Assembly: GCA_903910555.1 (NCBI GenBank)
Contig: CAIVZZ010000004.1
Span: 1 to 64,000, forward strand
Source: an uncultured Gemmatimonadota bacterium
Lineage (GTDB): Bacteria; Gemmatimonadota; Gemmatimonadetes; Gemmatimonadales; Gemmatimonadaceae
Length of the DNA stretch: 64,000 nt
Direction: 5' to 3'
Under the pieces are notes generated by a model. The model saw only the letters and a program-made list of their open reading frames with translations, was not told where the DNA came from and did not search any database. The position numbers were made by a program, and so were the translations under genes. Numbering within the stretch: the stretch's first letter is position 1; each line of letters opens with the position of its first letter. This document shows, in pieces, positions 21,549 to 23,585 of this stretch.

Positions 21549-22229
21549 ATGCGATGGCGGCATGCGGTCGGGCTTGTGTCGGCGCTCACCGTGATCGCGC
21601 CGGCTGCACGTGCGCAGACACCAACCGGAGGCGCGATGCGATTCCTCGCGCTCGGTGATTCTTACACGATTGGCGAAAAGGTCGACGCAACCGGCCGCTG
21701 GCCGGTGCAGCTCGCGAATGCGCTTCGCGCAAAGCAACTCAACGTTGACGCTCCGGAAATCATTGCGCGCACGGGGTGGACAACGGATGAACTGAAGGCC
21801 GGCATTGCCGCGGCGCCACCGTCCGGCCGCTACGATCTCGTCAGCCTTCTGATTGGCGTCAACAACCAGTATCGAGGCCGCGACGCCGAGCAGTATCGCG
21901 CGGAATTCAAAGCTCTGCTCACGCAGGCGGTTGGATTCGCCGGCGGAAAGGCGTCGCGGGTGATCGTGCTCTCGATTCCCGATTGGGGCGTCACGCCGTA
22001 CGCCGAGGGGCGCGATCGCGGCAGGATTGGCGCTGATATCGACCACTTCAATTCGATCGGCCGCACCGAAACGCTCGCCGCCGGTGCGCATTGGGTTGAT
22101 ATCACGCCCGCCTCGCGCGAAGAACACGCGGGTTGGACCGCGCCTGACGGACTTCATCCGAGCGCCGCGCAGTACACGCGCTGGGCCGAACTCGCGATGA
22201 ACGCCGCAACCGCCGCGCTCAAAAAATGA
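21549..22229 (+). CDS. Exported SGNH/GDSL-type hydrolase
   Basis: 226 aa. A signal peptide (about 1-22, ending ARAQ) is followed by the SGNH blocks: block I FLALGDSYTIGE (nucleophile Ser), block III LLIGVNNQYRG, and block V DGLHPSAAQY with the catalytic Asp and His. A secreted esterase/lipase or carbohydrate esterase; substrate not predictable. It lies between the small lipoprotein and the selenoprotein gene, all on the same strand. The 46 bp between its stop and the selenoprotein start hold a strong Shine-Dalgarno. Confidence 0.88.
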   Translation: MRWRHAVGLVSALTVIAPAARAQTPTGGAMRFLALGDSYTIGEKVDATGRWPVQLANALRAKQLNVDAPEIIARTGWTTDELKAGIAAAPPSGRYDLVSLLIGVNNQYRGRDAEQYRAEFKALLTQAVGFAGGKASRVIVLSIPDWGVTPYAEGRDRGRIGADIDHFNSIGRTETLAAGAHWVDITPASREEHAGWTAPDGLHPSAAQYTRWAELAMNAATAALKK

Positions 22230-22265: not shown

Positions 22266-22271
22266 GGAGGG
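22266..22271 (+). promoter_or_regulatory. Strong Shine-Dalgarno GGAGGG deciding the TTG start of the selenoprotein gene
   Basis: GGAGGG sits four bases before TTG 22276. No other start codon in the SelW-like frame has such spacing, and the resulting N-terminus (LHIAIEYC) matches the usual length before the CxxC/CxxU motif in this family. Confidence 0.75.
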
Positions 22272-22275
22272 CTGC

Positions 22276-22509
22276 TTGCACATCGCGATCGAATATTGCA
22301 CCGCGTGAAACTACGAACCCCGGGCCGTCAGTTTGGCGGCAGCGATTCGTGAGCGGTATCCAAGCGCGGAGATCACGATGAACCCGTCCAGCGGCGGCCG
22401 CTTCGAGGTCACGCTCGACGAGTCGCCGATTTTCGAGAAATCCAAACTCGGCCGCCACGCGCAGCCTGGCGAAGTGCTTCGCTTGATCGACACCGCGGCA
22501 TCCAAGTGA
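22276..22509 (+). CDS. SelW/Rdx-family selenoprotein with in-frame UGA (CTAU motif)
   Basis: Reading from TTG 22276 gives 77 residues if TGA 22306-22308 is read as selenocysteine (U) at residue 11. The motif is C8-T-A-U11, the CxxU redox site of SelW-like Rdx proteins (thioredoxin-like fold). After it come NYEPRAVSLAAAIRERYPS, SSGGRFEVTLDESPIFEKSK and PGEVLRLID, which follow the family pattern (Y..RA..L, GG.FEV, IF.K, GE...LI). A SECIS-like hairpin lies just after the UGA and a strong GGAGGG precedes the TTG. The stop overlaps the pfkA GTG (GTGA). The alternative is a Cys codon mutated to TGA; the intact frame on both sides argues against decay. No selA, selB, selC or selD lies in the window. 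Probable cytoplasmic redox protein. Confidence 0.82.
22313..22350 (+). promoter_or_regulatory. Bacterial SECIS-like stem-loop following the UGA
   Basis: GCCGTCA (22324-22330) pairs with TGGCGGC (22334-22340) over seven base pairs including one G-U, leaving the three-base loop GTT with G first. A lower helix ACGAA (22313-22317) with TTCGT (22346-22350) extends it across an internal loop. The apical loop begins 22 nt after the UGA. Bacterial SECIS elements are known to be within the coding region just downstream of UGA, with a small apical loop carrying G in its first two positions, for SelB binding. The geometry here fits. Confidence 0.7.
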
Positions 22510-23585
22510 GAATCGCGATCACCACCGGCGGCGGCGACGCACCGGGACTCAACGCCGTCATTCGTGCCGCCGTGCTCACCGCGATCGATCGCGGCTGGCA
22601 TGTGCTCGGCATCAAGAAGGGCTACGCCGGACTGCTCGGCGACGACGAGGTCATCCCGCTCACGCGCGACCAGGTGCGCGGCATCGGTCACCTCGGCGGC
22701 ACGATCCTGCGCACGACGAATCGCGGAAATCCGTTTTCGTATCCCGTTCGGCAAGCCGATGGCAGCTTCATTAAGCGCGATCGTTCGGACGAGCTGATCG
22801 AGAACGCGCGCAACCTCGGCATCAACGCGGTCATTTCGATCGGCGGCGATGGATCGCTCGCGATCGCGCACAGACTCGCGCAAAAGGGATTGCGCGTGGT
22901 TGGCGTTCCGAAGACGATCGACAACGACGTCAGTGGCACGATCAGCACGTTCGGCTTCGACACGGCGGTAAACACCGCGATGGAGGCGATCGACAAGCTG
23001 CACACGACCGCGGAAAGCCACGATCGCGTGATCGTGATGGAAGTCATGGGCCGCCATTCCGGATTTATTGCGCTGCACTCGGGGGTCGCGGGCGCTGCGC
23101 ATGCGATCCTGATTCCGGAGATTCCGTATGATCTCGCAAAGGTTTGCGATGCGATCATGGCGCGCGAAAAGCGCGGGCGGTTTTTCGATGTGGTAGTCGT
23201 CGCGGAGGGTGCGTATCCGAGCGGCGGTGAGGAATCGGTGATCGGCGAGTCGATGCCGGGGCAGGCACGGCGTGTGGGCGGAGTAGCCGAATCGCTGGCG
23301 CGACAAATTCAGGAGAAGACGGGAAAGGAATGCAGGTCGCTGGTTCTGGGGCATTTGCAGCGCGGCGGCATGCCGACCGGGTATGACCGGTTACTCGCTA
23401 CGCGCTTTGGCGGGGCAGCCGTGCAGGCCGTGGAGGACGGCAAATGGGGGCATATGGTTGCGCTGCAGTCGCCGGACATCGTGACGCTGCCGATCGAGGA
23501 GGCGCTGCTGCATACCAAGAGGGTCGATTTGGGGCACGATTTGATGAAAACAGCACGCCGATTGGGGATCAGTTTCGGCGACTGA
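22506..23585 (+). CDS. pfkA: 6-phosphofructokinase
   Basis: 359 aa, phosphorylating fructose 6-phosphate in glycolysis. GTG 22506 overlaps the selenoprotein stop (GTGA). Motifs: TTGGGDAPGLNAVIR at the N-terminus, ISIGGDGSLAIA near 110-121, the catalytic PKTIDNDVSGT near 134-144, and MGRHSGFIAL. The first site has Gly (GGDG), as in ATP-dependent enzymes, whereas the Lys of KTIDND is the form common in PPi-dependent ones, so the phosphoryl donor is best taken as ATP but not certain. Its coupling to a redox selenoprotein is unusual. Confidence 0.92.
   Translation: MRIAITTGGGDAPGLNAVIRAAVLTAIDRGWHVLGIKKGYAGLLGDDEVIPLTRDQVRGIGHLGGTILRTTNRGNPFSYPVRQADGSFIKRDRSDELIENARNLGINAVISIGGDGSLAIAHRLAQKGLRVVGVPKTIDNDVSGTISTFGFDTAVNTAMEAIDKLHTTAESHDRVIVMEVMGRHSGFIALHSGVAGAAHAILIPEIPYDLAKVCDAIMAREKRGRFFDVVVVAEGAYPSGGEESVIGESMPGQARRVGGVAESLARQIQEKTGKECRSLVLGHLQRGGMPTGYDRLLATRFGGAAVQAVEDGKWGHMVALQSPDIVTLPIEEALLHTKRVDLGHDLMKTARRLGISFGD

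Follow-up and report, generated by a model that had tools for sequence, protein, structure and literature searches.

In a 64,000-nucleotide stretch of DNA from an uncultured Gemmatimonadota bacterium (the window), we found a selW-like gene of 77 codons on the forward strand (22276–22509, stop codon included). Direct reading confirmed the layout given in the original prediction: a TTG start codon at 22276, a Shine-Dalgarno-like GGAGGG with a GGAGG match 4 nt upstream of it on the same strand (22266–22271), an in-frame TGA at codon 11 (22306–22308) and a terminal TGA at 22507–22509. With codon 11 translated as selenocysteine (Sec, U), the product reads LHIAIEYCTAUNYEPRAVSLAAAIRERYPSAEITMNPSSGGRFEVTLDESPIFEKSKLGRHAQPGEVLRLIDTAASK and contains the motif C8-T-A-U11. 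The gene is preceded by a GDSL-type lipase/acylhydrolase gene on the same strand (21549–22229), a neighbour shared only by close relatives. It is followed, also on the forward strand, by pfkA, the gene for 6-phosphofructokinase (22506–23585), which begins with GTG and overlaps the selW stop codon by 4 nt (GTGA). The pfkA product scores above the TIGR02483 cut-off, and no other PF00365 gene was found in the window genome. Judging from the sequence, 22276–22509 is almost certainly a SelW/Rdx selenoprotein gene with an in-frame UGA and a bacterial SECIS. The TTG start and the short spacer to the Shine-Dalgarno sequence are points against this assignment.

Ordinary gene callers might read the frame as a broken gene; existing NCBI family models already cover it. 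With TGA read as U, the product matches Pfam Rdx (PF10262) at 72 bits (cut-off 22.6, E = 4.7e-20; residues 3–72 of 77), TIGR02174 at 61.5 (cut-off 34.2) and NCBIfam NF041051 (SelTWH) at 90.7 (cut-off 88; residues 3–71). The proposed membership in the SelW/Rdx family over the whole length, with TGA as Sec, is borne out by these matches. Both C8 and U11 of the CxxU motif are invariant in 26 aligned relatives. An AlphaFold2 model of the product has a mean pLDDT of 93.8, and the best solved matches to this predicted structure, a thioredoxin-like fold, are the SelW-family proteins 2fa8 (E = 2.4e-07, TM 0.83), 2obk and 3dex. The same set of SelW-family structures is retrieved by a sequence profile.

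We then investigated the codon at the Sec position across the family (Gemmatimonadaceae), in which 107 of 179 genomes have a SelW match at the search threshold. The codon is TGA in 103 of these copies, TGC in three and masked (N) in one. None of the TGA copies has a premature stop other than the TGA of codon 11, and frameshifts were not seen in the relatives, so the check on residue 11 suggested in the original prediction came out in its favour. Relative to the window sequence, 2552 changes fall on third codon positions, against 1327 on first and 1096 on second positions. The Rdx E-value, the homologues in 107 of the 179 genomes and the lack of any other premature stop in the TGA copies place the frame far beyond chance. 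The same TGA is also found in Planctomycetota, Acidobacteriota, Chloroflexota, Calditrichota and others. SelW genes with CxxU and UGA (L163–L191) come from assemblies of Planctomycetota, Acidobacteriota, Chloroflexota and Armatimonadota; the available flanking DNA of these genes gave no pfkA match.

Of the three TGC copies, two are close SelW relatives and the third (L120) is a distant Rdx paralogue. The two close copies (CVGC; L111 and L114) are found in a single-contig genome (G149) and in G134, and neither genome gave a tRNA-Sec match. Thus, a Sec/Cys pair is present among the homologues at the UGA position. Both Cys-type genes still adjoin pfkA, and their SECIS codons are gone: they have neither an AGT/GGT loop codon nor the C of codon 18 (22329). 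L111 and L114 are a natural record of Sec–Cys exchange.

Downstream of the UGA, an apical stem-loop of 7 bp (22324–22340, forward strand; GCCGUCA/UGGCGGC) encloses the loop GUU (22331–22333). The UGA-to-loop distance is 22 nt, and the predicted fold of a 57-nt stretch has a free energy of -17.0 kcal/mol. This hairpin satisfies all four rules for a bacterial SECIS, namely a loop of 3–9 nt with a G within its first two positions, an upper stem of 4–16 bp, a UGA-to-loop distance of 16–37 nt and a free energy of at most -7.5 kcal/mol (PMC13188914). Synonymous codons are frozen in this region. The loop G (22331) is implied by AGT, GGT, AGG or GGG codons in 103 of 103 TGA copies. Ser19 is encoded by AGT in 59 of 59 copies, compared with nine of 309 serines elsewhere in the gene, and glycine at residue 19 is encoded by GGT in 34 of 35 copies, compared with 76 of 533 elsewhere. 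Leu20 is TTG or CTG in every copy, and across the 103 TGA copies codon 18 invariably ends in C and codon 20 in G.

Two base pairs show compensatory changes among the TGA copies. Pair 22326–22338 (CG/GC/TA) can form in 102 of 103 copies against a shuffle mean of 88, and pair 22323–22341 (GC/AT/CG) in 93 of 103 against a shuffle mean of 67, though at the latter the window sequence has a G-A mismatch. A test of pair 22323–22341 on the pfkA tree gave four to five independent pairs in the same direction and none in the opposite direction, with a median p of 0.125 from these few pairs; the small number of independent pairs tells against the selenoprotein assignment. The hairpin, first described as SECIS-like, is conserved and covarying. 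A lower helix extending it had been described as well: it appears in the minimum-energy fold at approximately 22312–22351 of the forward strand, where it is predicted without covariation support.

The genome of the window (3.2 Mb, estimated to be 100% complete) contains all four genes for which the original prediction had suggested a search. These are selC, encoding tRNA-Sec (77.4 bits, cut-off 47), selB (336.6 bits), selA (548.2 bits) and selD (382.2 bits), the last adjoining selC, and together they make up a complete Sec gene set. A formate dehydrogenase alpha gene in the same genome (G000:C15:22436-24376, L193) carries a single TGA in frame, within the catalytic motif NRT-U-HAPSVVGL, and is likely to encode a second selenoprotein. 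The Sec machinery thus has at least two likely clients, which rules out SelW as its sole user.

Across the family, SelW with TGA and tRNA-Sec occur together in 87 genomes (odds ratio 19, Fisher p = 2.5e-17, for genomes that are not phylogenetically independent). Sixteen genomes with a SelW-TGA gene gave no tRNA-Sec match, which counts against our assignment; these are mostly fragmented assemblies, and selB is above the cut-off in most of them. A large genus (group g8, G042–G071) has kept pfkA and has neither selW nor a tRNA-Sec match. The Sec trait looks patchy inside this one bacterial family.

We propose that, when a ribosome meets the UGA at codon 11 of selW, the hairpin at 22324–22340 would recruit SelB carrying Sec-tRNA-Sec, and that selenocysteine would be inserted. 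Most likely, this is a standard recoding of UGA as Sec. The product would be a small oxidoreductase, a 77-residue Rdx protein of the thioredoxin fold with a CxxU redox motif, and may have a thiol/selenol redox role. The single in-frame stop at codon 11 could instead mark a decayed Cys-type Rdx pseudogene with a nonsense TGA at its active site. However, the same TGA recurs in the 103 family copies and in the other phyla named above, no other premature stop has accumulated, third-position changes dominate and tRNA-Sec is present. The pseudogene reading is refuted by the conservation of the TGA plus the hairpin, and we give it practically no weight. Hardly more credible is a decoding of TGA as Trp or Cys without selenium, through near-cognate reading or an alternative code. 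It would yield the same frame, but TGA serves as the normal stop of selW and its neighbours, the hairpin 3' of the TGA is under constraint at synonymous positions and has disappeared from the Cys copies, and the full Sec machinery is at hand. The pseudogene, the alternative code and a chance frame are all rejected on the grounds of conservation, covariation and the full set of Sec genes.

We then investigated the pairing of selW with pfkA. A same-strand pfkA gene lies directly 3' of selW in 84 of the 103 TGA copies of the family, and the same holds for the two close Cys copies and for the copy with the masked codon. Two other families of the same order yielded 32 selW copies, 23 of them paired with pfkA; in two more families of the class, none of eight copies is so paired. 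Its occurrence in the family and in other families of the order indicates an old pair that this order has conserved. The spacing between the two genes ranges from -4 to +161 nt, with the 4-nt overlap in 14 family copies, and the overlap state changed at least seven times on the pfkA tree. Since the spacing varies and the overlap comes and goes, neither the 4-nt overlap nor a tight spacing is conserved across the lineage. In other families of the order, five loci (L157, L221, L207, L224 and L226) have a selW-pfkA overlap of 4 or 10 nt; where it is 10 nt, selW ends in QCA or close to that, which adds a Cys near the C-terminus. Cysteines of PfkA were considered as a possible redox target: among PfkA proteins, counting only those linked to selW, C214 is conserved in 74 of 83 and C276 in 44 of 83. 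A scan for promoters and terminators found no signal that clearly exceeded chance.

A pfkA-like gene is present in 164 of the 179 family genomes, many of which have no selW or tRNA-Sec, and in 16 genomes that gave no selW match the DNA before pfkA showed no selW remnant. As pfkA persists with neither selW nor a trace of it upstream, selW is dispensable to pfkA, and a dependence of pfkA on selW is ruled out by these genomes. The same observations bear on a possible selenium control of glycolysis, in which only ribosomes that insert Sec would reach and re-initiate at pfkA, so that a shortage of selenium would lower pfkA translation. Such a control would be in keeping with the 4-nt overlap, with pfkA as the sole PF00365 gene found in this genome, and with the start of pfkA, which no Shine-Dalgarno match precedes in the window or in most of the relatives that have the overlap. 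However, 66 of 71 spaced pfkA genes also have no Shine-Dalgarno match, which makes its absence uninformative on coupling, and the variable spacing, the repeated changes of the overlap and the many pfkA genes in genomes without selW speak against it. We therefore regard selenium control as improbable. The original prediction was right that the selW stop overlaps pfkA; its suggestion that Sec insertion could affect coupled translation of pfkA is not supported, given the repeated overlap changes and the pfkA genes kept without selW. A conserved selenium-dependent coupling of pfkA is not indicated. It is only slightly less doubtful that insertion of Sec into SelW is required for translating pfkA in those lineages where the genes overlap by 4 nt, in which case the committed step of glycolysis would respond to selenium supply there, or, more loosely, that SelW is a dedicated redox partner acting directly on PfkA.

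Rather than selenium control, we think that selW and pfkA are probably kept together for serving central metabolism or for being needed under the same conditions, and they are probably co-transcribed as a small operon. Gene order suggests that SelW may act near upper glycolysis. At least three families of one order have kept the pair, a concrete and testable hint that SelW is used together with upper glycolysis; copies of the Sec type and of the Cys type beside the same gene lend themselves to a natural comparison.

Bacterial SelW-like selenoproteins have long been known (PMC1088965, PMC2398784, PMC1794560), and a 2026 review (PMC13188914) still treats SelW-like proteins in bacteria as high-confidence predictions. 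A text search of open-access selenoprotein surveys, the review and a prediction paper did not find Gemmatimonadota selenoproteins, and literature searches among open-access papers found no report of the selW-pfkA pair. While the protein family is known, its pairing with pfkA in these soil and water bacteria seems to be unreported, and the present set adds more than 100 well-supported selenoprotein genes in Gemmatimonadota. The window product falls above the NCBI cut-off of NF041051 (SelTWH_Campy, SelT/SelW/SelH family (seleno)protein) by only 2.7 bits, and the name of this model suggests seed sequences of the Campylobacter type. Among solved structures, the SelW-related protein of Agrobacterium (2fa8) resembles the window model with TM 0.83–0.87 and 37–39% identity, and mouse SelW (2npb) with TM 0.74 and 22% identity. 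Compared with 2fa8 and 2npb, the window gene has the second residue of the motif encoded by UGA, in a bacterium. Ten reads of the GOS survey placed SelW beside a peroxiredoxin gene (PMC2398784). The SelW-like genes of the Sargasso Sea and GOS (PMC1088965, PMC2398784; reviewed in PMC13188914) and the window gene share PF10262, the CxxU motif and a bacterial SECIS right after the UGA; unlike them, the window gene belongs to Gemmatimonadota and lies next to pfkA.
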